Source: a virus
Direction: 5' to 3' (one strand)
DNA: 31,438 nt
IMG/VR virus record: IMGVR_UViG_3300045953_000016
Coordinates: 1-31,438 of that record
Below are positions 1,056 to 28,037 of this stretch, piece after piece. Both the position numbers and the translations under genes were made by a program. How positions within the stretch are numbered: the stretch's first letter is position 1; the number at the start of each line of letters is the position of its first letter. Under the pieces are notes generated by a model. That model saw only the letters and a program-made list of their open reading frames with translations. It ran no database searches and was not told where the DNA came from.

Positions 1056-3631
1056 GCGAGGAACTGCTCCGTTACTGTTAAGGGTCTATTAGTTAGTGGG
1101 ACTTTAGGTTCATTCGGAACAATAATCAAGTCCTTGAACTTCTTCAAGTCCTGATAGTTCTTGCCGACTTCAATGTCGCAAGGAATAATTAACTCATGTC
1201 GTGGAAGCGAACATCTACTGAAATCGATAGGGCGCTCCATTTCCCGTTTGATGATGGGTATCCACAGTGCTTTCTTAGAAACCGGAATACTAAATAGGAG
1301 TGCATCATGTGATTCCATAACAATTTTAATTGTGGGAATCTGGTGTCGGATTCGTAGTGCAGCGGCTTTAGTGTTATCTGACACCGCCCTTTGTGGAAGA
1401 TACGAGAATCCCATTCTGAATAGTTCATCTCCCATCCTTTCAAAGAAAGTTCTCCTACCACCCATAGATGCATCTACACCATATGGAAGTGGAGCGATTA
1501 GTTGACGGTTTCTTTTGAGGCAGTCGATGACTTGGGCTTGGAATACACCCTGGATTCGCGGAGACTTTGAATGGAAAACAAGTAGTGCCCGCTCCGCAAC
1601 CGCTTCCGTAATGCTAATAGGGATTTTATACTTACGTGCTTGGGTATTAAGCTCAGTTGCTGCTCTACGCTTTCCGGCCCCAAGATGACCAGCATGGCGA
1701 AGTGTCTTTCCAGCAAATCGTATAGGATGTTCATAACCCAGAGCCTTTTTGCTATAATCAAGTTCAGTGCCACCGAAAAACCAAGAAGCAGTGAGAGCGT
1801 GAATGTCGTGTTCGTCATACATCCTCAAGGTTCTCTCGTCATCAGCTAATAGTGCTACGACTCTAGCTTCAGCCTGAGAACTATCTGCTTGAACGAATTC
1901 TTCTTCTTCCTCTACTTCCGCTATGAAACCATCGATGAATACAATATGGTGGTCATCGGGGACATACATCGAACGCACGTCCTGTCCGATATCACCATGT
2001 TTGGTCATCGTCTGAAAGGCAGTGCCGAGAGGTTTGTCTTTCTTTTTTCCAAATTCATCATGGACTTCAACGACTGGTCGTATGGGTGGGTCTTGCTGTC
2101 CGGTTGATGTTCGTCCCGTATCAAGACAAGGAAAATAGGTAGTCCGCATCCTCTTATCATAGTCTGGCAAAGCCATAAGATAAGTAGATACCGTTTTGCG
2201 AACCCTTCTTCCTTCCAGAATAAGCTCACATACTCGTCTGTGGGTAGGGTTTTTGAGTGCAGTCTGCGAGTTAAGCAGAGCAGTAATATCTTCTTCTCCC
2301 GTAGTAGGCTTCGGAGGGAGCTTGAAATTATCCCACAGGAGCGACTTAATCTGCGTATGCGAGTTGACATTTATCTCAGCCCCTACTAGACTGAATAGTT
2401 CGTAACGGACGTTTTCATCCCACGCAATATACTTGCGAATAAGTCTCTCTCTAGCCTCTGCGTCAACACGAAAGCCCTGATTCTCGATTGACCAATACAA
2501 ATCGGGCAATCTGAGGAGGAAGTTTTCGTAAAATGGTCGCATTCCAAGTTCGTCGAGGTCACTGTCCATGTTCTCGTCAATTTCAATTGTGACACAGGCA
2601 TCCTTACCACATCCGTTGAATAGGTCTTGGATGGTTCCGTGATACATTCCCTCGTCTTTATAGAAGGGTTCTTCGGTAAAGATAGAGGTATTGAAAGCGA
2701 GGTTCTTGGGTAGTTCTGGGTTAATTGCGAACGATTTAAGAAGCGTATCAGAGGCGATTCGTCTAATAACAAATCCAAGCCTCTTGAGCTTATCACGGTC
2801 GTAATTAAAGTTCTGTCCAACAATGTCATTCTCCCATAGCATCTCAGCTAATATAATCCATATCTGAACCATATCAGCGGTTGGAATAGATGACAGACCA
2901 TCAGAGTTCCAGAGAGGAACTACTATCGCATGATGGCGGTCGAATGATAGTCCCATGCACACAGGTATACAGGTTCCATTAGCTTCAATGTCTACCGCCA
3001 TCCGTTTTTTCTTACCACGGTAGCGGTCGCGGAACGCTGCTAATTGTGCGGAGGACCGACAAATTTCAATGGTGCGCGAGGGGAGGTTTAATTCTCGGAA
3101 GGACGATTGATGTAAGGCTCGTTTGAAATCAAACAGAATAATCTGTCTATTCCAATATCCCTTGAACTCTACATCAGTAGCTTGCCATGACAGATGTTGT
3201 GGATTGTAAGTGGGAATAAACTTACGCCCCATGCCATGCATGATTGAGCCGCGATACTGGGTTATCTTATCCTTACCAGACAAGGCCCATAGCGCACCCT
3301 TACCAAGTGCGAGGATACAGTTAGGCTGCACCCCATTAATTTCTTCCTGTAGTTCTTTTAGTTGTTGGTCTATATCGATTCCCGCGTTCCTCGCTCTGAC
3401 GTGGAATGGAATCTTCTTACCAACTCCATTAGGTGGAACCTCGAATTTACTTACAGTAGATTGCCAACAATTCTCCTTACGAATGCCAGCATCCACTAAT
3501 AACTGATTAAGGTCGCCACTCTTAGCGAATGGTTTCCCCGCAATAGTATCGTGATGAGTCGGAGAGTCTCCGAGTATCATCATTTTGGCCCCACCGGGAC
3601 CGAAGCCAGGGATATACTTCTTATCGGTCAT
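1052..3631 (-). CDS. Family-A DNA polymerase with N-terminal uracil-DNA-glycosylase-like domain
   Basis: Likely the replicative polymerase, about 859 aa. An N-terminal domain of roughly 175 residues has family-4-like UDG motifs: GDSPTHHD with GKPFAKSG, and later NPQHLSW. A DnaQ-like 3'-5' exonuclease follows: VDIEANG (Exo I, D-x-E), GQNFNYDRDKL (Exo II) and CGKDAC (Exo III Asp). The polymerase domain has motif A QADSSQAEAR, motif B RFAGKTLRHAGHLGAGK and motif C ESHDALLF. In motif B the usual RxxxKxxxFxxxYG reads RxxxKxxxHxxxLG. A run of glutamates (VEEEEEF) precedes motif A. I prefer ATG 3631 over GTG 3670 because ATG 3631 lies inside the stop region of a 51-aa gene (11-nt overlap). UDG-polymerase fusions are known in some phages; SPO1 is my recollection. 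Confidence 0.93.
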   Translation of the reverse strand: MTDKKYIPGFGPGGAKMMILGDSPTHHDTIAGKPFAKSGDLNQLLVDAGIRKENCWQSTVSKFEVPPNGVGKKIPFHVRARNAGIDIDQQLKELQEEINGVQPNCILALGKGALWALSGKDKITQYRGSIMHGMGRKFIPTYNPQHLSWQATDVEFKGYWNRQIILFDFKRALHQSSFRELNLPSRTIEICRSSAQLAAFRDRYRGKKKRMAVDIEANGTCIPVCMGLSFDRHHAIVVPLWNSDGLSSIPTADMVQIWIILAEMLWENDIVGQNFNYDRDKLKRLGFVIRRIASDTLLKSFAINPELPKNLAFNTSIFTEEPFYKDEGMYHGTIQDLFNGCGKDACVTIEIDENMDSDLDELGMRPFYENFLLRLPDLYWSIENQGFRVDAEARERLIRKYIAWDENVRYELFSLVGAEINVNSHTQIKSLLWDNFKLPPKPTTGEEDITALLNSQTALKNPTHRRVCELILEGRRVRKTVSTYLMALPDYDKRMRTTYFPCLDTGRTSTGQQDPPIRPVVEVHDEFGKKKDKPLGTAFQTMTKHGDIGQDVRSMYVPDDHHIVFIDGFIAEVEEEEEFVQADSSQAEARVVALLADDERTLRMYDEHDIHALTASWFFGGTELDYSKKALGYEHPIRFAGKTLRHAGHLGAGKRRAATELNTQARKYKIPISITEAVAERALLVFHSKSPRIQGVFQAQVIDCLKRNRQLIAPLPYGVDASMGGRRTFFERMGDELFRMGFSYLPQRAVSDNTKAAALRIRHQIPTIKIVMESHDALLFSIPVSKKALWIPIIKREMERPIDFSRCSLPRHELIIPCDIEVGKNYQDLKKFKDLIIVPNEPKVPLTNRPLTVTEQFLA

Positions 3632-3776: not shown

Positions 3777-3910
3777 AGTCTAGTCCTATGTAATAGCCCT
3801 GGAATTGAAGGAATATCCTGCCACGAATCTTTGCATCCGGGGCAGGTATTCCATGTTTGGTTGTCTTTTATTGGTGCTGTAACGTCAGGCTTCAAAGGCT
3901 CTAGTTGCAT
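3683..3910 (-). CDS. Possible zinc-ribbon protein (75 aa), overlapping frame
   Basis: The product carries CPGC at residues 23-26 and CRKC at 46-49, spaced like a zinc ribbon. After CRKC the sequence turns basic and Ser/Asn-rich, which is typical of a non-selected frame. The first 130 nt fill the gap between the HTH gene and the 51-aa gene, which otherwise would be non-coding in a very compact operon. The last 94 nt overlap the 51-aa gene in another frame, and the CRKC codons span that gene's start codon. It could be a true overlapping pair or a decayed ribbon gene. No strong ribosome site is seen. Confidence 0.45.
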   Translation of the reverse strand: MQLEPLKPDVTAPIKDNQTWNTCPGCKDSWQDIPSIPGLLHRTRLCRKCISSISNSTTNRRSGLRSNRGRNLETR

Positions 3911-4172
3911 GTCCGTTGAGCTTTTTCAAGGCTTCCTTTCTCGATTCACATTTGAGGATGTTCTCATTTTCGTGAATCGCATTCGCGAGTTTTAAGTTCT
4001 CGCATACTAGACCAGTGCTTACATGGAAGTATTGGGCAGTCTTGGTGATAGTCCAGTCCCCCCTATGTTTGACTGTCATGGCTAAGTGGAAAAGCTCCAC
4101 AATAGTAACTCTCCCATGCCATGTGGGTTCTGATGTGTAACGGTCTAGAAAGGTTATTCCTCGTTGCGCCAA
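3885..4172 (-). CDS. Small helix-turn-helix DNA-binding protein (95 aa)
   Basis: The middle of this protein, DWTITKTAQYFHVSTGLV followed by CENLKLANAI, reads as a helix-turn-helix of the ParB/KorB-like or small phage regulator type: a first helix ending at A-x-x-F, a turn, and a recognition helix with S-T-G-L-V. A Lys/Glu-rich helical tail follows (SRKEALKKL). The start is TTG at 4172, with GGGAG about 8 nt upstream, inside the end of the preceding gene (19-nt overlap). It may regulate transcription or assist replication initiation. No nuclease or ATPase motif is present. Confidence 0.65.
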   Translation of the reverse strand: MAQRGITFLDRYTSEPTWHGRVTIVELFHLAMTVKHRGDWTITKTAQYFHVSTGLVCENLKLANAIHENENILKCESRKEALKKLNGHATRAFEA

Positions 4173-4501
4173 TCGATGTCTCCCGGCTTGATGATAAGTG
4201 GAACAGTTACCTTCTTGCCTTTCTCCATATAGGAGAATGGAAACTCGATGTTCTTACCAGCTATCTCCACCTTACCACCCTCAAGACGCTGATAGAACAC
4301 ACTATCCCTCTCGAACATATCCTTGATGTGAGGGATGATTCGCTGTAGTTCTAGAGCTAGTATTGCGGCGTCCGATGGACGCACTATAGTAGTAGGAAGG
4401 AATATGGTCTTAGCTCCCGGAACCCAGAGTAGCCGGTCCACGTCTAAGGTGGAACCGACTACCCCTGAGGCCAGCAGCTTAAGTAGCTGCCTTCTGTTCA
4501 T
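4154..4501 (-). CDS. Tat-like leader joined to a segment homologous to the capsid protein N-terminus (115 aa)
   Basis: The protein starts MNRRQLLKLLASGVVGS, which fits a twin-arginine leader (RR, then a weakly hydrophobic stretch), followed by LLWVPGAKTIFLP. Residues 49-70 (ALELQRIIPHIKDMFERD and on to FY) align without gaps to residues 10-31 of the major capsid protein encoded at 26442-27692: 14 of 22 residues are identical and most others conservative. A weaker match continues through KVE and a proline. The capsid protein has about 350 further residues that this one lacks. It sits in the early leftward operon between a cold-shock gene and an HTH gene, overlapping both. It may be a fragmentary paralogue, an assembly modulator or a minor virion part; the role is unknown. 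Confidence 0.75.
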   Translation of the reverse strand: MNRRQLLKLLASGVVGSTLDVDRLLWVPGAKTIFLPTTIVRPSDAAILALELQRIIPHIKDMFERDSVFYQRLEGGKVEIAGKNIEFPFSYMEKGKKVTVPLIIKPGDIDWRNEE

Positions 4502-4796
4502 CCTGTATCACCTTAATCTTTATGGCACGAAAGCCCTTCCCCTCAACTTCCACAGGGGTGAACTCCACCTTCATACCATTCTTCAGGTCTTGGAATCGGA
4601 GTGTGTCCTGCTTTAGTGAAGTCCAATGAAAAAAGATTCGGGTGAACTTGATATCCTTTGAGGATATGAATCCCCAACCCTCATCGGATACCTTGATGAT
4701 TTTACCTGCTACCCTTTTGTCGTCGGGCTTAACAGGCGTAGTATCGGGAGTGGTAGGTTCCTCTCCCCCAAAGAACTGACGAAACGCAGTGTTCAT
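4479..4796 (-). CDS. Cold-shock-domain (OB-fold) nucleic-acid-binding protein
   Basis: About 105 aa. After a Pro/Thr-rich N-terminal stretch of some 28 residues, a cold-shock domain follows: VAGKIIKVSDEGWGFISS holds the RNP1-like motif (usually KGFGFI), and RIFFHWTSL matches RNP2 (usually VFVHFS). The domain ends VEGKGFRAIKIKVI, as cold-shock proteins do. Such proteins bind single-stranded RNA or DNA and melt structure. I took ATG 4796 rather than GTG 4799 immediately before it; GGGG lies upstream. It overlaps the next gene by 23 nt. Confidence 0.85.
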   Translation of the reverse strand: MNTAFRQFFGGEEPTTPDTTPVKPDDKRVAGKIIKVSDEGWGFISSKDIKFTRIFFHWTSLKQDTLRFQDLKNGMKVEFTPVEVEGKGFRAIKIKVIQDEQKAAT

Positions 4797-4871
4797 CACT
4801 TACCCCACAATTCACGGTTGAGGTTTAACATTGGAGCATACTGCCGCGATGCTCAGTATATGGGCAGTTAG

Positions 4872-14321: not shown

Positions 14322-14347
14322 CTAAGTCGCTCTGCCTGAGGCACTTA
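14322..14347. repeat. 26-bp direct repeat, left copy
   Basis: It begins CTAAGTCG and ends GAGGCACTTA, and matches the copy at 14559-14584 in 22 of 26 positions; the changes are one base in the left part and three in the centre. TAAGT and ACTTA form a short dyad inside the element. A second small hairpin, GACTT-CGGCT-AAGTC (14314-14328), overlaps its left end. Confidence 0.8.
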
Positions 14348-14436
14348 CGGCCCTTTAGGGCGAACCCCTCCCCCTCTGGCTATGTATATACCCACGGTAT
14401 GATAGTCCTATATAGTGGACAGGCAGGTGTGAGGGG

Positions 14437-14479
14437 ATTATAATATTATATAATAAAAAAAAAAAAAAAAAATAATAAA
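14437..14479. other. 43-bp uninterrupted A/T tract with A18 run
   Basis: All 43 bases are A or T, with A18 at 14455-14472. It lies between the two repeat arrays and is flanked by GTGTGAGGGG and CCCCACACAC in inverted order. It is a good candidate duplex-unwinding element. The homopolymer length may be affected by sequencing error. Confidence 0.75.
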
Positions 14480-14558
14480 GATATACCCAACCCCACACAC
14501 CCCTCCACAGGAGCCTAAAAAGGTGGGTATCGACATAGGGGGAGTAGGGGGGTTCCTC

Positions 14559-14584
14559 CTAAGTCGTTCTAACAGAGGCACTTA
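14559..14584. repeat. 26-bp direct repeat, right copy
   Basis: This is the second copy of the CTAAGTCG...GAGGCACTTA element, in the same orientation as the copy at 14322-14347 and with 22 of 26 identical bases. It lies between the A/T tract and the right 11-bp array, so each side of the core has one 26-bp element and one array. Confidence 0.8.
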
Positions 14585-14595
14585 GCCCGAAAAGT

Positions 14596-14650
14596 CAGGG
14601 GAGGATTAGGGAGGAACGAGGGGAGTTTCAGGGGAGAATGAGGGGAGAAT
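14596..14650 (+). repeat. Right array of five 11-bp tandem repeats (iteron-like)
   Basis: Five contiguous 11-bp units: CAGGGGAGGAT, TAGGGAGGAAC, GAGGGGAGTTT, CAGGGGAGAAT and GAGGGGAGAAT. The consensus is YAGGGGAGRAT. The reverse complement of the left-array unit (AGGGAGG plus ATTT) is close to it, so the two arrays are inverted relative to each other around the A/T tract. Confidence 0.85.
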
Positions 14651-14723
14651 CAGCTATGCAGATGCGATAATATTATGATTTTAAAAGTCTAAAAGTTTCT
14701 GACTGTAAAAAATATTATAATCA

Positions 14724-14818
14724 GGATTAGCTATTAAATACTTGCCGTAGGCAAACTATGTTGGATTAGCTAAGGGCGTGGCTTCGCAGCTCGGATTAGC
14801 TGACAAAGTGGATTAGCT
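14724..14818 (+). repeat. Four copies of GGATTAGCT
   Basis: Exact copies start at 14724, 14763, 14793 and 14810, with steps of 39, 30 and 17 bp. The irregular spacing excludes CRISPR and simple tandem duplication. They lie between the origin candidate and a leftward terminator, and could be binding sites for a phage regulator or initiator. Confidence 0.75.
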
Positions 14819-14834
14819 ATTGGGGGGACTTCCG

Positions 14835-14866
14835 AAAGGAAAAGACCGAGGGTTGACAACCCCCGG
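14835..14866 (-). terminator. Rho-independent terminator for the leftward small genes
   Basis: On the minus strand CCGGGGGTT-GTC-AACCCTCGG forms a 9-bp stem with one G-T pair and a 3-nt loop, followed by TCTTTTCCTTT. It lies 12 nt past the stop of the 57-aa gene. It would keep transcription from those genes out of the repeat region. Confidence 0.8.
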
Positions 14867-14877
14867 CCTGGGCGAGA

Positions 14878-15051
14878 CTAGCGAGCGACTTGGAACCCCT
14901 CGTAACGCCGCGCTTTGTTCTGGTGCGCGGTTACGATAATCTGAAGTGCATCCTCACGAGGGATACCAGCTCGGACCAGAACCGCGATAGCCTTACGCAG
15001 TGCGCGGTATTCCGAGAGTGACAGCGAAACGAGATAAACGCCATAGTCCAT
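14878..15051 (-). CDS. Small helical protein (57 aa) beside the origin candidate
   Basis: The product starts MDYGVYLVSLSLSEYRALRK and continues with a helix pair and basic tail (AGIPREDALQIIVTAHQNKA, RRYEGF). AGGAG lies 9 nt before ATG 15051, and a terminator follows the stop. G+C looks higher than in the large arms. It is the second gene of a separate two-gene leftward unit and may be an early regulator or DNA-binding protein; no family is recognised. Confidence 0.7.
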   Translation of the reverse strand: MDYGVYLVSLSLSEYRALRKAIAVLVRAGIPREDALQIIVTAHQNKARRYEGFQVAR

Positions 15052-15088
15052 TGTAGGATACTCCTGTTAGTGTGTTGAGTAGTAAGAC

Positions 15089-15109
15089 GGGGGGATATAC
15101 AGTCCCCCC
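15089..15109 (-). promoter_or_regulatory. Strong hairpin between the two small leftward genes
   Basis: GGGGGGA (15089-15095) and TCCCCCC (15103-15109) form a 7-bp stem with a 7-nt loop. No T-run follows on the minus strand. It could attenuate or process the mRNA between the 125-aa and 57-aa genes. Confidence 0.6.
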
Positions 15110-15125
15110 ATCTCAGTAGCGCCGA

Positions 15126-15503
15126 CTACGCCGAGGGTGCCGTTTCCGACTGTTCCGCCATTGCCGCGAGGGTGGACTCCACCTGTGCGCGAGCAATGTT
15201 CTCAGGGATACCCAGACGGATGTAATCCCGAATCATCCGTTCCTTGATATCTTCCTGAGGCACTTCAGACGGCTTGTGCGGAAGTAGCGCCGACTGATAT
15301 GCATTGGACCGGGCGTTAGCTTTCAACGCCTCATCCACCATATCTTTGAGGCTCCACTTCTTTTCCGTCATCACGGCCTGTGCTTCGATATCGTTCTCGG
15401 TTTCACGATACTCGAAAGCCTTTTCGACTTTCTTGCCGCGCTCCGACTCCACCGGCGAGTCATCGGGAACCTTGAACGTGAACTTGCCGACCAGTGTTTT
15501 CAT
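15126..15503 (-). CDS. Helical protein (125 aa), likely early or regulatory
   Basis: I start at ATG 15503 with AGAGG five nt upstream; a GTG two codons earlier is possible. The first 20 residues are a short strand pair (KTLVGKFTFKVPDDSP), the middle is charged and helical, and the C-terminus has IKERMIRDYIRLGIPENIAR, a pattern like a small three-helix domain. The last residues are Ala/Glu/Ser-rich. It has its own consensus promoter and lies next to the divergent late promoter, so it may regulate the switch; this is inference. Confidence 0.7.
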   Translation of the reverse strand: MKTLVGKFTFKVPDDSPVESERGKKVEKAFEYRETENDIEAQAVMTEKKWSLKDMVDEALKANARSNAYQSALLPHKPSEVPQEDIKERMIRDYIRLGIPENIARAQVESTLAAMAEQSETAPSA

Positions 15504-15547
15504 ACTCACCTCTGTTAGTCGCCCGCGTCATGCGAGCGTATGACCAT

Positions 15548-15575
15548 ACTATAGCAGGTGCCGTGCCAGTGTCAA
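15548..15575 (-). promoter_or_regulatory. Leftward sigma70-type promoter
   Basis: On the minus strand TTGACA (15575-15570) and TATAGT (15553-15548) are 16 bp apart. The start of transcription should fall near 15541, about 40 nt before the 125-aa gene. A short palindrome GTATG-AC-CATAC (15538-15549) covers the -10 edge and start point, a good position for a repressor. Confidence 0.75.
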
Positions 15576-15826
15576 GCCCTGTGAACATTGGGCTTTCGCA
15601 TGGTAGCTATACGAATAGTCCGCCTATCGTCAACCTTTAGTTTACTTTTCTCGTGTTTCGAGGGACTTCTCGTAAACCATTGATACGTAAGGGGATATAG
15701 TCCTCGTGGCGAGCCTCATAGCTGGCACGAAAATTGCGTGGTATCGTAATCATTTGTTTTTGTATAAGAATATAAATGGGTCCCCTATTTTGTGGAAGAA
15801 CCTAATATTATATACAAAAAGAAAAG
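15576..15826. other. Non-coding region between divergent promoters
   Basis: No gene is supported on either strand. The region includes A+T-rich pieces (about 15745-15825) upstream of the late promoter, which may act as an UP element. Nothing else definite is seen. Confidence 0.4.
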
Positions 15827-15877
15827 TTGACTTTCAGTCGAATCCATGCTATACTGATTCCATACGGGGCGACTGAA
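15827..15877 (+). promoter_or_regulatory. Strong rightward promoter of the late operon with 8-bp dyad
   Basis: TTGACT (15827-15832) and TATACT (15850-15855) are exactly 17 bp apart, with an A/T-rich upstream stretch. TTCAGTCG (15833-15840) in the spacer is repeated inverted as CGACTGAA (15870-15877), centred on the -10 box. This is a likely operator. Transcription should start near 15862 and read all late genes. Confidence 0.8.
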
Positions 15878-15915
15878 CTTTCAGATAATATTGAAAAATA
15901 TTATTGTCTGAGAGT
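15877..15915 (+). promoter_or_regulatory. Hairpin in the late mRNA leader
   Basis: TCAGATAATATT and AATATTATTGTCTGA pair around a GAAA loop, with a small bulge, and the stem extends weakly outward. It ends about 20 nt before the first late start codon and could stabilise the mRNA 5' end or modulate translation. Confidence 0.6.
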
Positions 15916-15935
15916 CCCTACAAGGGGAAAGGTGT

Positions 15936-16157
15936 ATGCCTACAGGAACAGCAACAATCACGGCTAAATCTGGACCGTCTATCCAGAATACTGCTCTCCC
16001 CTTAACGGGAGTAACACTAGTAACATATGACGTGGATAGAAACGTGCTGTTCGTTCAGCAGGGTTCTGCACGTCCTATCAAGGAATTTGATTTGACTGGT
16101 GTTACTACTGCAACTATCACCATTAGCGGTGGCAACTTCGCATTCGTGGTGTCGTAA
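15936..16157 (+). CDS. First late gene: small beta-rich protein (73 aa)
   Basis: The product is rich in Thr, Val, Ser and Gly with alternating strands (GTATITAKSG, GVTLVTYDV, NVLFVQQGS, ATITISGGNFAFVVS), like small capsid decoration proteins. GGGGAAAGG lies just upstream of ATG 15936. A structural gene ahead of the small terminase, at the strongest promoter, suggests high expression. Four other small late proteins (at 16730, 26072, 27720 and 28038) have similar composition, but I cannot claim homology. Confidence 0.7.
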   Translation: MPTGTATITAKSGPSIQNTALPLTGVTLVTYDVDRNVLFVQQGSARPIKEFDLTGVTTATITISGGNFAFVVS

Positions 16158-16162
16158 CTATC

Positions 16163-16729
16163 ATGCCGATGGGAATCGTATCGGACGAGGATTTCAAAAA
16201 GGAGAGGGATAATTCTTCTCCTGATAGACGTCCTCTGGAAAAACCATCGGCTGTAGTTGTCGATACAACTAGAGGACGAGGAGTCGGTAACGTAGAAGTC
16301 CCGGATAGTCTGCGAAAGATTATTGGAGAAACTTCCGTTACCGACGGTCCCGCTGAAGCTACACAGTTAGCTGCTAATTTCGGAATATCTCGTTCGTCTG
16401 TATCAGCGTATGCTAATGGTGCAACATCGACTGCATCTTACGATGATACACCGAACAAGAATATTATTAAAGAAGCGAGAGAGAAGATAAGCCGTAAGGC
16501 GCGTGGGAAATTAATGCTTGCTTTGCGAAGTCTTACTCCTGAAGCTATCGCTATGGCGAAGGCTAAGGATATCGCAGGCATTGCGAAAGATATGTCCGCT
16601 GTCATACGTTCGATGGAGGAGAAATCCTCTCACGATGATAGTGGACCTAAAGGTCCAACCTTCATATTCTATAGTCCTCAAACTCGTAAAGAAGAAACGT
16701 TTGACGTGGTGTTCACCAGAGAGGGATAG
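16163..16729 (+). CDS. Probable terminase small subunit
   Basis: The 188-aa product lies four genes before the large terminase. After a disordered Pro/Ser-rich start, a helix-turn-helix is seen near residues 68-82 (ATQLAANFGISRSSVSAYAN), then a long helical region (AREKISRKARGKLMLALRSL through SAVIRSMEEK) that would serve oligomerisation, and a strand tail FIFYSPQTRK that could contact the large subunit. Small terminases recognise phage DNA for packaging. Position and layout support the call; no signature motif exists. Confidence 0.75.
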   Translation: MPMGIVSDEDFKKERDNSSPDRRPLEKPSAVVVDTTRGRGVGNVEVPDSLRKIIGETSVTDGPAEATQLAANFGISRSSVSAYANGATSTASYDDTPNKNIIKEAREKISRKARGKLMLALRSLTPEAIAMAKAKDIAGIAKDMSAVIRSMEEKSSHDDSGPKGPTFIFYSPQTRKEETFDVVFTREG

Positions 16730-16963
16730 ATGCCCCTACTTGAAACGTTATCCCCTGGTCCGAACTACTCGTTGACACAGAATCAGGTATACTGTCTACC
16801 TGCATCAACTGTGTTCATCATTGCTAATGAAGCTATCGAGTTCTCAATGAATGTCGGTAGTGGATTCGCAGCAGTAGCGGCATCATCTACGGGATTCCAA
16901 AGCTCGTGGCCCTACTGTCGCGCAACGACTACAACGGCGAAGGTTTCAGTTAAGAGGTATTAA
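16730..16963 (+). CDS. Small beta-rich protein (77 aa)
   Basis: It begins at the base after the small-terminase stop (TAGATG). Strands such as QVYCLPASTVFIIANEAIEF and AKVSVKRY, with a Gly/Ala/Ser central part, suggest a small virion protein like the 73-aa product two genes upstream. No ribosome site stands out, so it may be translated by coupling. Confidence 0.65.
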   Translation: MPLLETLSPGPNYSLTQNQVYCLPASTVFIIANEAIEFSMNVGSGFAAVAASSTGFQSSWPYCRATTTTAKVSVKRY

Positions 16964-16964
16964 C

Positions 16965-17099
16965 ATGCTGACTCCCTTTAGCCTGCTTCTTCTAATCGTA
17001 GTCATCCTGGCAGTCTACGATTTGATTTACAACCCTGCGACTAAACTAGCTGACGTTTGTATTATTCTCCTCGTAGTCTTTCTGTTGTTGATGCGATGA
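16965..17099 (+). CDS. Two-helix membrane protein (44 aa)
   Basis: ATG 16965 has AGAGG seven nt upstream. The product is MLTPFSLLLLIVVILAVYDL, a short polar loop IYNPATKLADVC, and a second helix IILLVVFLLLMR. Its stop overlaps the lipoprotein start (ATGA). A small two-helix membrane protein next to a lipoprotein recalls holin plus o-spanin arrangements, but the holin role is only a hypothesis. Confidence 0.7.
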   Translation: MLTPFSLLLLIVVILAVYDLIYNPATKLADVCIILLVVFLLLMR

Positions 17100-17398
17100 G
17101 AATTATTCTTCTACTATCGCTTCTCGTGTCCGGTTGTGCAACCACATGGTCACAACTAGGATATGAGAAGGTCGGTCCAGTAGAAGCTGAGATATGGCGT
17201 AATAACAAGACCGGCTCCTGTGAGAGACGAGTCTATCTAGATTCAATGTATTTCCATACTGTGGTGAACTGTGATGATTACAAGGCGAGAATTACTCAAG
17301 ATGTTCGCGGCTACGCCTTTCCTAGTGACAAGCGCGAGGCCGAAACTAAGTCCATCTCCAGAAGTAATACAAGAACGATTTCAGATGGCATTCGATAA
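17096..17398 (+). CDS. Lipoprotein (100 aa), possible outer-membrane spanin-like
   Basis: From ATG 17096 the product begins MRIILLLSLLVSGCATTWSQ: a short charged start, a hydrophobic stretch and the lipobox LVSGC, so signal peptidase II would leave a lipidated Cys at residue 14. The mature part (~87 residues) has strands EIWRNNKTGSCERRVYL and YFHTVVNCDD. Two further cysteines may form a disulfide. Its last 128 nt overlap the large terminase frame. A frame starting at 17057 adds 13 residues that would spoil the signal. Spanin-like or superinfection roles are possible. Confidence 0.75.
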   Translation: MRIILLLSLLVSGCATTWSQLGYEKVGPVEAEIWRNNKTGSCERRVYLDSMYFHTVVNCDDYKARITQDVRGYAFPSDKREAETKSISRSNTRTISDGIR

Positions 17399-19088
17399 AG
17401 GGTTCTGGAAACCCAATAAGAAACAGGAACTATTCCTCTCCTTACCGAATTCCATCTTTGAGGGATTCTACGGAGGGGGTAACGCTTCTGGTAAGTCGGA
17501 CGTTCTACTAGTCTACGGACTAATACATCGTTGGCATGAGAACCCAAAGTTCAAACAGGTTTTCATGCGGCGAACTTATCCTGAACTAAAGAATGAAATA
17601 GTTCCCCGAAGTCAGGAGATATATCCGAAGTTCGGGGCAGTATTCAATAAGACTGATATGTGTTGGCGGTTTCCGCGTCCTGATGAGATTGGCGGTTCAG
17701 GCGCGAGGACTGGAGCACACATATTCTTAGGGCATTGCGAGACTGAAGATGATGCTCATAAATACGACTCAATGGAAATTAATCTCTTTACTCCCGACGA
17801 ACTTACGACCTTTACTGAATTTATATATCTACATATCGGATTCACCCGAGTCCGAACTAGCGACTCAAATCTTCCTGCAATCATTAGGGCCGCAGGAATG
17901 CCCGGAGGAATCGGGCACACATTTGTTAAGAAAAGATTCATTGCTCCCTACCCTGCTGGTGGAAAGGTTATTGTCGGAAAAGGAAACGTAAAGCGATTCT
18001 ACGTCCATTCGACAGTAAGTGATAACCCACACGCGGATAAGGAGTATAGCGCAAGACTTGATGGTATTCCTAGTGAGGCCGAACGAAAAGCGAGGAAGTT
18101 CGGTGATTGGGATGCTTATCAGGGTCAAGTATTCGATGAGTTCCGGGATAGACTATATCCTGATGAACCCGATAATGCGCTACACGTAATACAGCCGTTC
18201 GATATTCCATCGTGGTGGCCCCGAATGTTTATCGGAGATTGGGGCTTCGCTGCGATGACCTATATGGGATATTACGCTATATCCCCTGCTAAGCGAATGT
18301 TCCTGTATCGTGAACGTTACTGGCTCAAGACTAAGATTGAAACTTGGGCACCCGAAGTGAAGGCTGACATTGAGCGAGAACAACCAAGAGTTATCAAGTT
18401 CTGTCAGTCCGTCGGACAGGAACGCGGGCAGGAACACACTATACAACAACAAATCGAAACTGCAATTGGCAGACCTATCGAACTATCTGTTAATAGTCCT
18501 GGGTCAAGAATTAGCGGAAAGCTACTACTTCACGAATATCTCAGGTGGAAACCGAAGCCAATAGTTCCACCTTCTGATATGCCAGTATATTCGGAGGAAT
18601 ATGCCATGTGGCTACTCCGAAATAAAGGCATGATTGATTACAAGAATTATCTCGCACTATTCGACCCTCCTGAACCGGAGAGTAATATACCGAAATTGCA
18701 GATATTCCTGTGTGATGTTCACAAGATAAGTCACGAGGAATGTTCTAACTGTTGTCCGCTAATGATTGAATCTATTAAAGCCTGTAACTATGATAAGGCT
18801 ACTAAAGAAGGGAAGCCTGCTGAGGACGTTGCTCAGTTTGCTGGTGACGACCCTTACGATGATATTCGTTACGCTTGCGACTCAGCGGAACGATATTTTG
18901 AAACAGCAGCTCAAGAATTTGCAAAAGTTCAGAAGCAGGCTGAATTAACACAAGCACTAGCGAATAGTCAGGATTGGACAGCCTTCTATCGAAATGCAAG
19001 GAAACTAGAATCTACTGAAAGACCTATGCAAGCAGTTTCACGCTTTCATAGAGCAGGTAGTAATCGTTCTAGGAGATGGGGACGATAG
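17271..19088 (+). CDS. Terminase large subunit with Tat-like N-terminal extension
   Basis: The packaging motor, up to 605 aa. The ATPase has Walker A GGGNASGKS (residues 68-76) and an acidic DEL (176-178) after a hydrophobic stretch, as in Walker B of TerL. The nuclease domain shows FIGDWGF with Asp323, the first RNase-H-fold Asp, after the typical GDWDAYQGQVFDEF. From ATG 17271 the N-terminus reads MMITRRELLKMFAATPFLVT, a twin-arginine-like leader like that of the 115-aa early protein. ATG 17385 (567 aa) would avoid most of the 128-nt overlap with the lipoprotein gene. The tail is Arg/Ser-rich. Confidence 0.9.
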   Translation: MMITRRELLKMFAATPFLVTSARPKLSPSPEVIQERFQMAFDKGFWKPNKKQELFLSLPNSIFEGFYGGGNASGKSDVLLVYGLIHRWHENPKFKQVFMRRTYPELKNEIVPRSQEIYPKFGAVFNKTDMCWRFPRPDEIGGSGARTGAHIFLGHCETEDDAHKYDSMEINLFTPDELTTFTEFIYLHIGFTRVRTSDSNLPAIIRAAGMPGGIGHTFVKKRFIAPYPAGGKVIVGKGNVKRFYVHSTVSDNPHADKEYSARLDGIPSEAERKARKFGDWDAYQGQVFDEFRDRLYPDEPDNALHVIQPFDIPSWWPRMFIGDWGFAAMTYMGYYAISPAKRMFLYRERYWLKTKIETWAPEVKADIEREQPRVIKFCQSVGQERGQEHTIQQQIETAIGRPIELSVNSPGSRISGKLLLHEYLRWKPKPIVPPSDMPVYSEEYAMWLLRNKGMIDYKNYLALFDPPEPESNIPKLQIFLCDVHKISHEECSNCCPLMIESIKACNYDKATKEGKPAEDVAQFAGDDPYDDIRYACDSAERYFETAAQEFAKVQKQAELTQALANSQDWTAFYRNARKLESTERPMQAVSRFHRAGSNRSRRWGR

Positions 19089-21215
19089 ATGCCTAGATTA
19101 AACCAGCTTGGCGAAGTCGCAATGGGTATTGCTGGAATCCAGGGGTCTATTAATCTTCAGCTAATCCCAGATAGTTTTGGTCCATACTGGGTTACTAACG
19201 AAACCGCTATCTTTTTCCAGCCTTCCATAAACGCTCTTACTCTCTACGATAAAGTTTCTGGTGGTAGAAGTCCTGTTAATCCGCCTTGGCCCGCGAATGA
19301 TTATCGCGCCGGTGGAGGAAATTGGTGTGCATGGGCTAATCTACCAGGAATAGGATTGTTCGCTCCTAATCTTCATCTTCCAGAAGCAGGATTACTGGAT
19401 GTTGGACCTGATGGAGCAATAGGATATAAGCCTGTCTATCAATCTGATAGGGGCGGAGATGTCCTAGAACTAAATGGAGAGGTTTGGAACCTTACTCCAT
19501 CTGATGTAGTATACGATTTACAACTACTCGGCGGTAAGCGTGCAATCTACCGCAATGAATTTCATCAAATCAAGACAGTAAATATTCCTCCATGCATTCA
19601 AATCGGTTCAGTGTGGAGGCCAAGAGCTTCATTCATTAATGGTGAATGGTGGGTATGCTACTTCTCATCGGAGAAAGGCGTAATTCTCCATCCATTCAAT
19701 TCAACTGTTGGATATGTTATCGTTCCTCCGGGAATAGATGCATTCCAACACGATATGATTGCACTAGGAAATACTGCTAAAATCTGCTGGTCTGCGCGTG
19801 CAGGAGAATTGCCAGTAGATTATCGTGAAAGACTAATTGATGTAACTACTGAGCCAAGACAAGAACTCAAGGCTTCTACTGGAGTAATCGTTAGACTAGA
19901 TAGACCTCACTGGTTAGGTGGCTTTACTGGTAAACCTGGCGTTCTCGGTGGATGGGACACTAATGATGACCCTCCAGAATTTCGAGATGTTCATGCCCTA
20001 CCGGGAAATGGATATCTCGATGTTCCAACGTCTACGTTTTACAACAAAAGAGACCAACCCGTAGGTTCTTTTATTCACAGTCAGCCCGGATGGACTGTGG
20101 AAACAATGGAAGAAGCTGCTAGAAATAGTCAGTTTCCTCCTATTTGTTATTGGGACTCACGTAGATGGCCGCGTTGGCCTAATCTTCCTGCTAACTCTTG
20201 GCTGTGCATACAAGCATATTGTGGACGTAGTGAACCTTTCGCTGCTTTTGAAGCAGATATTAGGTCACTACTTTCAGAAATAACCCAACTTAAACCAAGT
20301 CAGTTGATTGCTCTCGTTGACCAGTCTTATTGGCAGACACCTACCAATAATCTGACCGACGATTTGAGCGCACTGATTCCAATTTTCTCACGATTGGCGA
20401 AGGACTATCCGAAAGTTATCGCCACTATTCCTTTTAACTTCAATGGACGATTCAATGGGATGCAAAATCATCCTGAGATTCGTCCGTTATGGGAACAATT
20501 CGCAGCCGGTATTACAGGAGAACCTAACGTGGCAAATCCACAGCTTCCTGCTGATGTTTGTGCTGCAATTCATGCCGAACGCGGTAAGTATGGTCCTTCT
20601 CCTAACAGTTCAGAACTGTGCAAAATTCTAAACGATGCTGCATGGTCCTGTGGTCAGGGTGCAGATATCGGAGTTAACCGTAAGGACTTTGGGAATCACG
20701 TAGAAAGTCCCGAACGTCCTGAAGTTGGCAAAATTGCCAGTGATATCATTCATCGCAAATCAGACAACATGATTTGGGATGTATTGGTAGCTGCTGGCGA
20801 TGGTGGCCCTGCTACTCCTAACTGTGGTGAAGCATTAGGAGAAATGACTGATTCTCGTAGGCCGTGGGTTAAACCACAACAGCCTCCTGATACACCTGAC
20901 CCAGAACCAGTAGGTGTTACTATTTTCTACAATGACCCTGTTGCAAGACGTTCAGACCCGTTCGGCTGTCTCATTAAGTTTGAGATAGCTAGTGCAAGAC
21001 CCATTACGAGAGCTGAATTTTATTGCGAGGGTAATGGAGAGAATCCCGTCGCTATTGAATACCCAGTGGGGCCGGGATTTGATGGTAGGTATATCCGTCA
21101 AATCGGTGTCAAATTCACTGTTAATGGCGTTTGGACCCTGAAAGTTAAGGGTTGGAACGACCAGGGACAGGTAGGAGAATCTGACGGAACTCATCGAGTA
21201 GAAGTAACATTCTAA
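19089..21215 (+). CDS. Multidomain virion protein (708 aa): propeller-like, TIM-barrel-like and Ig-like parts
   Basis: Residues 25-300 are beta-rich with Trp/Gly repeats (WCAWANLPGIGLFAPN, ASFINGEWWVCYF), propeller-like. Residues 350-475 alternate strands and helices (PPICYWDSRRW, WLCIQAYCG, LIALVDQSYW, VIATIPFNFNG), like a glycoside-hydrolase TIM barrel. Residues 490-590 form a unit ending WDVLVAAGDGG and RRPWVKP that I recall from uncultured phage proteins. After a Pro hinge, residues 607-708 look Ig-like. It probably binds or degrades cell-surface glycans as a spike or virion enzyme. Its place between terminase and portal is unusual for a fibre. No catalytic residues can be assigned. Confidence 0.65.
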   Translation: MPRLNQLGEVAMGIAGIQGSINLQLIPDSFGPYWVTNETAIFFQPSINALTLYDKVSGGRSPVNPPWPANDYRAGGGNWCAWANLPGIGLFAPNLHLPEAGLLDVGPDGAIGYKPVYQSDRGGDVLELNGEVWNLTPSDVVYDLQLLGGKRAIYRNEFHQIKTVNIPPCIQIGSVWRPRASFINGEWWVCYFSSEKGVILHPFNSTVGYVIVPPGIDAFQHDMIALGNTAKICWSARAGELPVDYRERLIDVTTEPRQELKASTGVIVRLDRPHWLGGFTGKPGVLGGWDTNDDPPEFRDVHALPGNGYLDVPTSTFYNKRDQPVGSFIHSQPGWTVETMEEAARNSQFPPICYWDSRRWPRWPNLPANSWLCIQAYCGRSEPFAAFEADIRSLLSEITQLKPSQLIALVDQSYWQTPTNNLTDDLSALIPIFSRLAKDYPKVIATIPFNFNGRFNGMQNHPEIRPLWEQFAAGITGEPNVANPQLPADVCAAIHAERGKYGPSPNSSELCKILNDAAWSCGQGADIGVNRKDFGNHVESPERPEVGKIASDIIHRKSDNMIWDVLVAAGDGGPATPNCGEALGEMTDSRRPWVKPQQPPDTPDPEPVGVTIFYNDPVARRSDPFGCLIKFEIASARPITRAEFYCEGNGENPVAIEYPVGPGFDGRYIRQIGVKFTVNGVWTLKVKGWNDQGQVGESDGTHRVEVTF

Positions 21216-21224
21216 GGAGAAATA

Positions 21225-21650
21225 ATGTTCGCATGGCTGAGAGAACTACTTGAAATACGATACGATAATAAATTAAGAAACTTGAGACTTAAGGAAGAAC
21301 TACAGGATAGAAGTAAGTTCTGTTCTTCCTGTGAAGTCTTGAGAATTGAACTAGAAAATTCCCATCGCGAAAGACGGGAACTAATGGGTAGGATTCTAAC
21401 TCCTCCCACTAAAGAGCCTGACCACATCGTGGCTCCTGAACCACAGAAATTGCCAATGGTAAGACGGCATATTCCGTGGACAGTTAAGCAACAAATGTTA
21501 GAAGCAGAAGATAGACAGAAAGCGGTAGCATTGAAAAATGCTGCTAAGCCTGATACTTCTGTTGAGGATTTGGAAAAAGAACTAAACATCGTTCAGCAGG
21601 AACGGGAGTCACAAAGTGGCCCGACAACAAACAGCAGCGGAAGCAGCTAA
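21225..21650 (+). CDS. Coiled-coil protein (141 aa)
   Basis: Strong ribosome site AAGGAG five nt before ATG 21225. The product opens MFAWLRELLEIRYDNKLRN with an amphipathic helix, has a CSSC pair in KFCSSCEVLRIELENS, a long charged coiled coil, and the phrase IPWTVKQQMLEAEDRQ that I have seen in uncultured phage proteins of unknown role. A Ser/Thr tail overlaps the next gene. It may be a portal-associated or internal virion protein. Confidence 0.7.
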   Translation: MFAWLRELLEIRYDNKLRNLRLKEELQDRSKFCSSCEVLRIELENSHRERRELMGRILTPPTKEPDHIVAPEPQKLPMVRRHIPWTVKQQMLEAEDRQKAVALKNAAKPDTSVEDLEKELNIVQQERESQSGPTTNSSGSS

Positions 21651-21879
21651 AGAAGGTGCCTCCCGTTTGGGAAGATTTGCGGGGGCTACTTCTGACGAAC
21701 AAAAGAAGAAGCAACCTGATATGGTTGGGCGTATCCAGAAATACGCTCAAGAAGAAGCAGAACGTCAGAAGAAAAAGAAAGCTGAAGATGAAGCCAAAAA
21801 GAAGGCTCCGGTTAATACGGCGCCTCAAGATGGTTTCCTCACTAGAATGTATAAGAAATACGTAAGCGGGGAGAAGTAA
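21616..21879 (+). CDS. Lys/Ala/Glu-rich helical protein (87 aa)
   Basis: GTG start at 21616, with GGGAG six nt upstream, within the end of the preceding gene (35-nt overlap). The product is mostly charged helix (YAQEEAERQKKKKAEDEAKK) and ends FLTRMYKKYVSGEK. It is probably a small DNA-binding or internal head protein. No known domain is seen. Confidence 0.65.
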   Translation: MARQQTAAEAAKEGASRLGRFAGATSDEQKKKQPDMVGRIQKYAQEEAERQKKKKAEDEAKKKAPVNTAPQDGFLTRMYKKYVSGEK

Positions 21880-21880
21880 C

Positions 21881-22366
21881 ATGGCAGGAATCAATGTAGG
21901 TCCGGGATTCATGGGCAGACTTGGCGGTCAGATGCCAGGTGCATTGAATGCCTTGGGCCAAAAATATGGTGGCTCGATGTCTGGACCTGCCAAGGCATCA
22001 GCTTCACTACTTGGTAAACAGCGAACACCATCAAGACCTAAGGTAACTAGTGGCATGGGTAAGCAACAGCTACCCGGTCAACAGATACCAATTCAAGCAC
22101 CAGGATTACAGGCAGCACCACAAGAAATTCAGGCTCAGATGCCTGCTGCCGTTAATACTGCACCTTCACCGCAATTATTTCAGAATCCCTATGCAAACAT
22201 ATTTGGTGGAAGTTCCGGATACGGTTCTAGTGGGAACACTGGAATCGCTGGTGGACTATTTAACAGACCACCCGGATACGAACGCCCTAATATGGGTGCT
22301 GCAGGCACTGATATTGGAGGAATGTTCGGAGCTTACAACCGCTTTAGTCGGCCACAAAGCTACTAG
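21881..22366 (+). CDS. Gly/Pro/Gln-rich low-complexity protein (161 aa)
   Basis: Begins one base after the preceding stop, with GGGGAG close upstream. The product is dominated by Gly, Pro, Gln, Ala and Ser with few hydrophobic clusters, and ends FGAYNRFSRPQSY. It is likely disordered and a virion component near the portal. The function is unknown. Confidence 0.7.
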   Translation: MAGINVGPGFMGRLGGQMPGALNALGQKYGGSMSGPAKASASLLGKQRTPSRPKVTSGMGKQQLPGQQIPIQAPGLQAAPQEIQAQMPAAVNTAPSPQLFQNPYANIFGGSSGYGSSGNTGIAGGLFNRPPGYERPNMGAAGTDIGGMFGAYNRFSRPQSY

Positions 22367-22372
22367 GGAATC

Positions 22373-24766
22373 ATGAAACCCGAAATTCCAGAGGATGTGC
22401 GAAAACTTCTTAAAGAAGTGGTAGACCACTTCGATAAGGAGGATGTCGCAATACGCGAGCGTCAACTTCGGACGTGGAGGCGTCTGAAACTCATGTGGGA
22501 AGGGTTTCAGCGTGCATGGTATTCTGAAGTGGCTCACGACTGGAGAATTTGGGACTTTGATAACGAAAGTTCTGATACTGACCAATCTTATTATGATAAG
22601 CCAATTAATGTTTTCAGAGCTTATCTGGAATCGATTATTGCTGCTCTTAGTGTCACTGTTCCTCCTGTTAAATGCTACCCTGACGATGCTGATAATAATC
22701 TTGACCTCTCTACGGCCAAAGCCGGAGACAAGATTGCACAACTCATTTATCGTCATAATAACGTCCCTCTACTGTGGGTCCATGCTCTATTTATCTATTG
22801 CACTGAGGGTATGGTAGCGTGCTACTCATATCCTAAGTCTGACGAGAAATACGGAACCTACGAGGAAAAGAAATACAAGTCTGAAGAAGAAGGTCATCAA
22901 TATACTAAGTGTCCGAACTGTGGATTCATTATTGATGACCAAATGATGGACCCTGCGATGATGGCTCAGACTAATCCTGAAGCCGCCATGCAGTTGGATA
23001 TGCTAGGACAAAAGGCTACTCAGGCTGAAGATGAATACATGCCTGATGATACTGATGTTGCTGTCCAAGATGCGGTCCAGAATGCTACTGCTGAACTCTG
23101 TCCTAACTGTCTACAATTGATTGCTCCAGAACTCTCACAAGAAACACTGATTGTCGAGAGATTAGTGGGCATCACCAATAAACCAAAATCTAGAATGTGC
23201 CTTGAAGCATACGGTGGTCTGTATGTGAAGGTGCCGAACTATGCTCGTAGACAGGAAGATTGTCCTTACCTAATTTATGAATATGAAACTCATTACGCCA
23301 ACGTCATCGAAAGATACGCTTCATTACACGGACAACTTAACCCTCAAAAAGTTAAAGCCTCAGCAGGGGCTGTCCGTGACCCATATGCGGAATGGGCCAG
23401 ACTTAATCCTCAATATCAGGGAGAATACCCTCAGAATGTTGTTACTGTCCGAAATGCTTGGCTTAGGCCAGCGGCCTTCAATGTTCTAGCCGAACAAGAG
23501 GATATTGACGAACTAAAGAAAAGATTTCCAAATGGTTGCAAAGTAATTTTCGCAAATGATTGCTTTGCGGATGCTGAAAATGAATCTCTTGACGATTGTT
23601 GGACGATTACTCATAACCCACTCTCAGACTACATCCACTCTGACCCAATCGGATTGCTACTTGTTTCTATTCAAGAAATCACCAACGACCTTATTTCCCT
23701 CATCCTTCAAACTATCGAACATGGAATTGGACAAACCTTCGCCGACCCCGGAGTATTGAATTTCAATGCCTATCGGCAGATGGAATCTACTCCCGGTGGT
23801 ATCTATGAAGCTACTCCAAAATCTGGAAAGAGTGTGGGAGACGCATTCCACGAAGTCAAAACGGCAACTCTTTCCGCAGAAGTAATGCCGTTTGCACAAA
23901 ACATTCAAAGTCTTGCACAGCTAGTTTCGGGGGCTTTGCCCTCATTGTTTGGAGGTTCTTTAGAAGGCAGTGAGACAGCTTCTCAATACTCAATGAGCCG
24001 TGCTCAAGCCTTACAGCGCCTCCAAAATACTTGGAAAATCTTTACTACTTGGTGGAAAGAAATCTTTGGCAAAACGATTCCCATGTTCATCAAAGAAACG
24101 CGCTATGATGAGCGTGATGTTCAGCGTGACAAAGATGGGAATTTCATCAACATATTCATTCGCAAAGCCGAGTTGGAAGGAAAACTTGGTAAGGTTGAAC
24201 TTGAGGCGAATGAGAATCTTCCGATTACGTGGTCACAGCAGAAAGACGTAATCATGCAATTGTTGCAGGCATCTAATCCACAGATTCTTGCAATTCTGGC
24301 TGCTCCTGAGAATCTTCCAATTATTCGTGACGCGATTGGTCTTACTGATTTCATTGTTCCTGGTGAAAAGGACCGGAATAAGCAATACGATGAAATCAAG
24401 TTGCTGTTGAATTCTGAACCCATTGTAATGCCACCAGACCCGATGATGGTAATGCAGGGTGCTCCTCCAGAACCTATGGAGATGCCGTCTATTGAAGTTG
24501 AACCTGACTTTGATGACCATCAGATTCAATACGATATCTGTCGTGAATGGATAATTGGCGAGGCCGGTAGACAAGCCAAAGTAGAGAATGAAGCTGGTTA
24601 CAAGAACGTCCTGCTACATGCTAAGATGCACTTGCAATTCGTGCAGATGGCACAAATGCAGGAACAACAAGCAGCACAAGAATCAGGTGAAGAAGGTTCT
24701 GAAGTAACTGAACAGGACCAAGAAGCACCAATAATGGGAGAAGAAAATGTCGCTACTGTTCAGTAA
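22373..24766 (+). CDS. Portal protein (797 aa) with inserted zinc ribbon
   Basis: Position before scaffold and capsid genes, length and features fit the P22-like portal class: a helical N-terminus (REVAHDW-like segment WYSEVAHDWRIWD), DKPINVFRAYLESIIAAL, and a C-terminal helical barrel region rich in Gln/Met. Residues ~175-250 hold KCPNCG and, about 60 residues later, LCPNCLQ, a probable zinc ribbon with a long acidic insert between its halves. The C-terminal tail is Gln/Glu-rich. The portal forms the ring through which DNA is packaged. The gene overlaps the scaffold gene by 20 nt. Confidence 0.85.
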   Translation: MKPEIPEDVRKLLKEVVDHFDKEDVAIRERQLRTWRRLKLMWEGFQRAWYSEVAHDWRIWDFDNESSDTDQSYYDKPINVFRAYLESIIAALSVTVPPVKCYPDDADNNLDLSTAKAGDKIAQLIYRHNNVPLLWVHALFIYCTEGMVACYSYPKSDEKYGTYEEKKYKSEEEGHQYTKCPNCGFIIDDQMMDPAMMAQTNPEAAMQLDMLGQKATQAEDEYMPDDTDVAVQDAVQNATAELCPNCLQLIAPELSQETLIVERLVGITNKPKSRMCLEAYGGLYVKVPNYARRQEDCPYLIYEYETHYANVIERYASLHGQLNPQKVKASAGAVRDPYAEWARLNPQYQGEYPQNVVTVRNAWLRPAAFNVLAEQEDIDELKKRFPNGCKVIFANDCFADAENESLDDCWTITHNPLSDYIHSDPIGLLLVSIQEITNDLISLILQTIEHGIGQTFADPGVLNFNAYRQMESTPGGIYEATPKSGKSVGDAFHEVKTATLSAEVMPFAQNIQSLAQLVSGALPSLFGGSLEGSETASQYSMSRAQALQRLQNTWKIFTTWWKEIFGKTIPMFIKETRYDERDVQRDKDGNFINIFIRKAELEGKLGKVELEANENLPITWSQQKDVIMQLLQASNPQILAILAAPENLPIIRDAIGLTDFIVPGEKDRNKQYDEIKLLLNSEPIVMPPDPMMVMQGAPPEPMEMPSIEVEPDFDDHQIQYDICREWIIGEAGRQAKVENEAGYKNVLLHAKMHLQFVQMAQMQEQQAAQESGEEGSEVTEQDQEAPIMGEENVATVQ

Positions 24767-26054: not shown

Positions 26055-26071
26055 CTCCAAGGTAGAGGATT

Positions 26072-26431
26072 ATGGCTGTTACGTCAGTTAGGACGATTGC
26101 TATCACCTTCAGTGGTGATATTAACGCCACTAATTCTCTGCCCTCAGCGCCGAGTGGTGTTTCACCCGGTAGTATAACGATTCATTCGTTAGCTCCGGGT
26201 GATAATACTATTGCGCTACCAACGGGTGGGAGCACCCCTGTAGGAGCCACGATTATTCCTCCTTCTGGTAATCCTAACGCACTAACTTTGAAAGGTGTGG
26301 GCGGCGACACAGGAATCAGATTAGGTAAGACTGACCCTACTAGCTTAGCCTTCGACACAACTGCATTACCAGCAAATATCGTCATAAATGCTGCGACCAC
26401 CACTACTGGTGTTCGTATCATTTGGACGTAA
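26072..26431 (+). CDS. Small beta-rich virion protein (119 aa)
   Basis: Thr/Gly/Ser/Pro-rich with regular short strands (TIAITFSGDI, GSITIHSLAPGDNTIALP, NALTLKGVGGD, IVINAATTTTGVRIIW). It ends just before the capsid gene, and the capsid ribosome site overlaps its stop. It is likely a capsid decoration or head-fibre protein. GAGGA lies upstream of the ATG. Confidence 0.7.
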   Translation: MAVTSVRTIAITFSGDINATNSLPSAPSGVSPGSITIHSLAPGDNTIALPTGGSTPVGATIIPPSGNPNALTLKGVGGDTGIRLGKTDPTSLAFDTTALPANIVINAATTTTGVRIIWT

Positions 26432-26441
26432 GGAGTTACCT

Positions 26442-27692: not shown

Positions 27693-27719
27693 TCATCTCA
27701 AGGGTGGATTGGAGGCGAG

Positions 27720-28022: not shown

Positions 28023-28037
28023 TAGCAGGAGAAAACA

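Follow-up and report, generated by a model that had tools for sequence, protein, structure and literature searches.

The window, i.e., the whole stretch of 31,438 nucleotides of viral DNA analyzed here, carries a gene for a 115-aa protein in which a conserved Tat-like leader is fused to a piece of the phage's own major capsid protein, in this case the N-arm (Table 1). As a module, the leader turns up repeatedly in uncultured phages, ahead of pieces from four capsid families. It is somewhat probable that such genes represent a new class, in which a constant Tat-like leader is combined with an interchangeable body copying, and in some cases joining, pieces of the phage's own capsid protein, as a selected mimic used in conflict with host sensors or rivals. 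To our knowledge, no phage making selected mimics of its own capsid parts has been described.

Table 1. Positions of the leader gene, its parts, its neighbors, and the imitated capsid gene in the window
Feature	Position	Strand	Basis
Leader plus capsid N-arm mimic, whole gene (115 aa, ATG start)	4154–4501	-	ORF, homology searches, profile comparison
Leader module, residues 1–36, MNRRQLLKLLASGVVGSTLDVDRLLWVPGAKTIFLP	4394–4501	-	Same module present in 55 genes
Twin arginine, residues 3–4	4490–4495	-	RR in 55/55 leaders
Conserved tail WVPGAKTIFLP, residues 26–36	4394–4426	-	W 55/55, PG 54/55
Capsid N-arm-like segment, residues 43–95	4217–4375	-	hhalign to capsid residues 4–57; 14/22 core
Probable ribosome-binding site AAGGTG	4509–4514	-	Sequence, 7 nt before ATG
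Cold-shock-domain gene, overlapping the leader-gene start; conserved neighbor	4479–4799	-	PF00313, E 7.5e-10
Small gene downstream of the leader gene	3885–4172	-	Adjoins the cold-shock gene directly in G057 and G061, both without a leader gene
Major capsid protein, GTG start	26442–27692	+	phrog_14242, E 1e-9; RBS AAGGAG
Capsid N-arm, residues 4–57 (the part imitated)	26451–26612	+	hhalign

The capsid-like part of the 115-aa protein

The original prediction paired residues 49–70 of the leader protein with capsid residues 10–31 through 14 of 22 ungapped identities, and this match was reproduced, the residue pairing following from GTG 26442 as the capsid start. In an all-against-all scan of ORFs in the window that were 60 aa or longer and did not overlap, it was the best 22-residue ungapped match, and the runner-up had 11 identities. 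Within the phage's own record, the leader protein matched the capsid gene by tblastn (E 1.4e-7), and phmmer with the leader removed found, besides the protein itself, only the capsid protein (E 2.9e-7). When profiles of eight leader proteins and seven capsid proteins were compared by hhalign, the two families aligned over 54 columns, with a probability of 97.5% and an E value of 6.7e-12. The weak similarity originally noted beyond the core was also present, as VPLIIKPG paired with VPLELRPG of the capsid protein past a 12-residue insertion. The homology of the 115-aa protein to the phage's own capsid N-arm was confirmed by these sequence comparisons.

As originally noted, the leader gene and the capsid gene are approximately 22 kb apart on opposite strands, and most of the capsid protein is absent from the 115-aa protein (about 360 residues by our count, against the ~350 first given). 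The whole 115-aa protein had no significant match to any PHROGs or Pfam family, and its capsid-like part of ~50 residues falls short of the full length and fold of a capsid subunit. DNA identity had been described as visibly lower than protein identity; the direction was right, and the difference was only marginal, with 40/66 nucleotides (61%) and 14/22 amino acids (64%) identical in the core. The codon positions were more informative, since third positions were identical in 9/22 codons and second positions in 18/22, which is the pattern of an old, protein-selected relation and agrees with the old, selected event originally suggested.

A generic helix that is alike by chance, or a truncated duplicate in decay, would be a very improbable explanation. 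The N-arm is a short helix, and the AlphaFold2 model of the 115-aa protein contains a helix at residues 44–75; however, the profile match, shuffled sequences, the recurrence of non-helical capsid pieces elsewhere, and purifying selection all oppose such an origin, and chance and a generic helix were rejected. The profile-level relation, whose failure had been named in advance as the refuting outcome, was upheld, and the same leader bears pieces of three other capsid families. The AlphaFold2 models had a pLDDT of 57 for the 115-aa protein and 41.5 for the capsid protein, which is too poor for fold comparison.

Two observations concern the window as a whole. Rfam and tRNA scans over its entire length found nothing. 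Positions 14346–31438 are 99.98% identical to IMGVR_UViG_3300045967_000012 (G071), which is the same phage from another sample and extends past the window.

The recurring leader and its changing bodies

Approximately 60 leader genes were found in some 50 uncultured phage contigs, in line with the original suggestion that the leader is shared with other phages. The leader set of 55 genes from ~50 records was obtained by searching viral contigs with the protein, the leader alignment, and leader variants. The leader comprises 36 residues, with an invariant twin arginine and a D-x-E-R-L-L-W-V-P-G-x-K-T-I-F-L-P tail. The tail, D-[PVIL]-[ED]-[RK]-[LA]-L-W-[VI]-P-G-x-K-T-I-[FS]-[LI]-P, was nearly invariant in the set (D and W in 55/55, G in 54/55), partly by selection because part of it was a search pattern. 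The twin arginine was present in all 55 leaders, and KR, which the pattern also admitted, was not seen among them. A hydrophobic stretch was present, and F stood at +4 in 48 of the 55.

The leader had been called Tat-like, and the Tat signal model TIGR01409 was matched by 9 of 13 related leaders (best 2.3e-6), while the window leader scored 12.6 bits, under the curated cut-off of 16.7. By eye, the window protein has no AxA cleavage site at the expected place; the conserved D-x-[ED]-[RK]-LLWVPG follows the hydrophobic stretch instead. On the whole, "Tat-like" is a fair description of the window leader. The leader was not found in INPHARED (cultured phages), PLSDB (plasmids), or two GTDB genome scans, these scans being weak on short diverged sequences. 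An NCBIfam search of the leaders and a Pfam and PHROGs search of the protein yielded no entry for a family of leaders with capsid fragments, and no description of Tat-like leaders on phage capsid proteins was found in the open-access literature searched. One record (G066) has two leader genes in which 34/36 leader residues but only 17/36 third codon positions are alike and the bodies are unrelated; thus, the leader is conserved as a protein and the body is the changing part.

The window large terminase (17271–19088, +) also has an RR leader of its own at its start, MMITRRELLKMFAATPFLVTSA, as does that of G001, unlike the terminases of G003, G015, G016, and G044. The start of the window terminase overlaps a small ORF in another frame (17057–17398).

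Roughly half of the leader-gene bodies are pieces of major capsid proteins, and about half have no detectable capsid similarity. The pieces come from four sequence-unrelated capsid families (phrog_14242, phrog_283, PF25209, and phrog_212) and from different regions, namely, the N-arm, the P22-type I-domain, a middle loop, and C-terminal strands. When bodies with the leader removed were compared with every ORF of their own record at E<1e-3, every match was a capsid protein. Window-type capsid pieces were the N-arm in G000, G001, G003, G015, and G016 and residues of about 220–270 in G044. P22-type coat pieces were the N-arm in G005, G019, and G049, the I-domain region in G010 and G011, and, again in G019, the C-terminal strands. 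The body of G028 represents the third family, confirmed as PF25209 (Phage_capsid_4), and that of G043 the fourth, the phrog_212 major head protein (E 3.5e-9). A PHROGs search of 23 non-matching bodies added this fourth family only. Three bodies were compared with cultured phages as well, and nearly all matches were annotated as coat or major capsid proteins; the remainder lacked names and occupied the corresponding positions in related phages. The idea that a body would match the capsid protein of its own phage best of all was rejected, as the capsid proteins of relatives score about alike.

The association was also evaluated against shuffled sequences and from the capsid side. A capsid HMM segment at i-E<0.02 was found in 39 of 67 candidate proteins, a number that takes in extra short ORFs matching capsid HMMs, and in 29 of 1340 shuffled sequences. 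Two separate capsid pieces were found in the proteins of G006, G019, G023, and G070 (the last without an RR leader) and in 0/1340 shuffles. When all six-frame ORFs of at least 40 aa were searched with capsid HMMs, 21 of the 22 short ORFs (60–250 aa) matching at E<0.003 had an RR leader; 18 of these leaders were recognized automatically (Fisher p 3e-25 on those 18) and three by eye. The counts rest on leader-selected records, except in the capsid-first survey; there, G070 and, weakly, G055 yielded capsid pieces that lack an RR leader, so that carriers other than the leader may exist. Records G013, G027, G070, and G072 were covered in part, and G052, G074–G076, and G078–G080 by profile search only.

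The original prediction had suggested that the protein would be the preserved N-terminus of a leader-bearing capsid protein, with capsid proteins of related uncultured phages starting with such a leader and WVPGxKTIF. This was not supported, as none of the 55 surveyed leader genes encodes a full-length capsid protein, and the bodies elsewhere are middle, I-domain, C-terminal, or joined pieces. On the sequence evidence, the 115-aa protein is a capsid-fragment fusion and not an N-terminal remnant.

Several individual genes were observed in addition. In G037 and G038, one of two adjacent RR-leader genes carries a capsid N-arm and its neighbor a capsid C-terminal piece (i-E 0.001). A leader-borne body that is conserved but has no likeness to capsid proteins, LSDQEYRLLVDRGRKILAYR, occurs in G005 (3187–3618, +), G045 (5081, -), and G013 (30053, +); G005 and G045 each also have a leader gene with a capsid N-arm. 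The body at G022:10061 (+) weakly resembles its own head-tail-adaptor-like protein (9/20 identities); this is a single such case, and if the resemblance is real, capsid proteins are not the sole source of bodies. Among ORFs without the leader, a 125-aa ORF in G003 (15755–16132, -) holds a middle capsid piece, LYGLPYYESLGEFTWLGIERHS, and a 109-aa ORF in G070 (17837–18166, -) joins capsid pieces 62–77 and 363–394. In G055 (75–317, -), a cysteine-rich, zinc-ribbon-like N-terminus without an RR leader precedes a capsid N-arm motif, LTNMFERDDAFYRQLEKK, whose match is weak (E 0.2) and near the contig end.

Distribution, selection, and candidate functions

Among 29 relatives with a 78–100% identical capsid protein, some of which are partial records, the leader gene was found in three, namely, G001, G066 (two genes), and G077, whose body has no capsid match. 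In G057 and G061, the site is empty, the two genes that flank it in the window being immediate neighbors there. With this patchiness and the empty sites, the gene has the behavior of a single-gene accessory. Its place in the window-type group is next to the cold-shock-domain gene, close to the DNA polymerase and within the replication block, and the cold-shock neighbor is kept in G000, G001, G002, G003, G015, and G016. P22-type phages often have it next to terminase and portal, within the late head block. In the phage collection, four P22-like records had no leader-type capsid fragment, apart from one split capsid gene. In two P22-like phages of the collection, a gene that by eye looks like an acetyltransferase sits in the terminase–portal slot that leader genes occupy in the uncultured group (L349:26084–26428 and L350:30844–31236).

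Position in the head block bears on whether the protein assists the phage in assembling its own head or is a minor component of the virion, with the leader anchoring it at the membrane or portal and the body docking into the shell. We regard this as unlikely. The frequent place of the P22-type leader gene between terminase and portal and the RR leaders of the G000 and G001 terminases would suit such a helper; however, the gene is absent from most close relatives, lies in the replication block in the window group, and carries differing capsid segments. The patchiness of the gene likewise speaks against its being essential for assembly.

The leader and the body were both shown to be under purifying selection. 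G001, the closest relative, has a gene order collinear with that of the window; the capsid proteins of the two are 97% identical, but the leader proteins are 63% identical. Between the window and G001, dN was 0.05 and dS 0.39 for the leader, dN was 0.39 with dS saturated for the body, and dN/dS was 0.23 for the whole protein; the bodies of G010 and G011 gave dN 0.033 and dS 0.395. The excess of synonymous changes was significant for the G000/G001 and the G010/G011 bodies (p about 1e-9 each). These values also bear on the idea that the function resides in the leader and that recombination supplied the body as filler, frequently from the abundant capsid gene. The absence of capsid likeness in about half of the bodies and the stronger conservation of the leader agree with this idea, but we give it a low probability, because bodies are under purifying selection, the N-arm was retained across window-type records whose capsid proteins are only about 51% identical, and the recognized sources are almost all capsid genes.

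That the same leader occurs with four capsid families and with different segments suggests a shared pressure, exerted by something that recognizes the capsid protein. In the proposed mechanism, the leader would take the capsid mimic to the membrane or the Tat translocase, and the body would bind whatever normally binds the imitated segment, candidates being the scaffold, neighboring capsid subunits, and host sensors that recognize the capsid (CapRel, Thoeris). The bound complex would then be held at the membrane or Tat, or carried away through a hitchhiker effect. We infer that the likeliest partner would be a host capsid-sensing defense protein, the mimic acting as bait that blunts abortive infection, and that the assembly machinery of co-infecting relatives would be the second candidate. 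The switching of capsid segments between phages would track whichever epitope or interface is important in the host concerned.

Since patchiness, body change, and segment switching are more easily reconciled with a conflict than with an assembly step that is essential, a bait that counters capsid sensing by the host is tentatively favored over all rivals. The homology of the body to the phage's own capsid protein, protein-level selection on the bodies, the invariant twin arginine with the TIGR01409 matches, and the patchiness of the gene are consistent with a bait. Moreover, Tat moves bound partners along by "hitchhiker" co-export (PMC4273604), and capsid-sensing defenses exist in CapRel (PMC9712102) and Thoeris (PMC11312562). 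However, export, binding, and target are all putative, the window Tat score lies under the cut-off with no AxA-type cleavage site following, and the bodies that lack capsid similarity and the late head-block position of P22-type leader genes count against a bait, as does the about equal similarity of bodies to own and relatives' capsid proteins. In addition, CapRel contacts the P-domain sheet and spine helix of the capsid protein, not the N-arm (PMC9712102), and a capsid fragment might activate a sensor instead of blocking it.

The similarity to relatives' capsid proteins would instead be expected of trans-dominant interference, in which the fragment joins or caps the capsids of co-infecting relatives or titrates their scaffold, like Ty1 p22 acting on Gag. 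This alternative is possible but rather doubtful. The patchy accessory distribution and the dominance of N-arm pieces agree with it; the P22 N-arm binds the scaffold gp8 through D14, E15, and E18 (PMC9965877), and capsid-fragment inhibitors exist in Ty1 (PMC4599808). On the other hand, the phage's own assembly would also be threatened, and the leader would have no obvious role. A further point against interference is that we know of no dominant-negative precedent for middle and C-terminal capsid pieces.

The functions first suggested for the protein, i.e., assembly modulation, a decoy or poison, or a minor virion part, may each be possible. If the partner is a host sensor, the genes amount to a natural catalog of the capsid epitopes that bacteria sense, as well as a new kind of counter-defense; if it is assembly, they are natural inhibitors of capsid assembly. 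Either reading is testable with small proteins.

Comparison with known systems

The nearest working analogue is p22 of Ty1, a restriction factor produced from an alternative transcript of gag and identical to the C-terminal half of Gag (PMC4599808). As with p22/p18, the phage protein is a fragment of the element's own capsid protein that is encoded by the element (PMC4599808). Unlike p22, the phage mimic is a separate gene far away on the other strand and is homologous and diverged rather than identical; the phage genes also draw on several capsid families and segments and bear a foreign leader, whereas p22 has no targeting leader. Assembly inhibition by the phage mimic is putative.

Compared with Tat signal peptides (TIGR01409, PF10518), the leaders share the invariant twin arginine, mostly F at +4, and the hydrophobic stretch. 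They differ in having the conserved tail in place of an AxA site and a capsid fragment as cargo, along with the low score in the window. Relative to the major capsid proteins of the four families, each body is homologous to a short part, but at roughly 15–65 residues it makes no capsid subunit, and the leader is foreign to these proteins. Finally, the sequestering logic proposed for the mimic would resemble that of the sponge-like anti-defense proteins of phages, Tad1, Tad2, and Acb2 (PMC12043709). Whereas those proteins bind second messengers (PMC12043709), the mimic would imitate the phage's own sensed protein.
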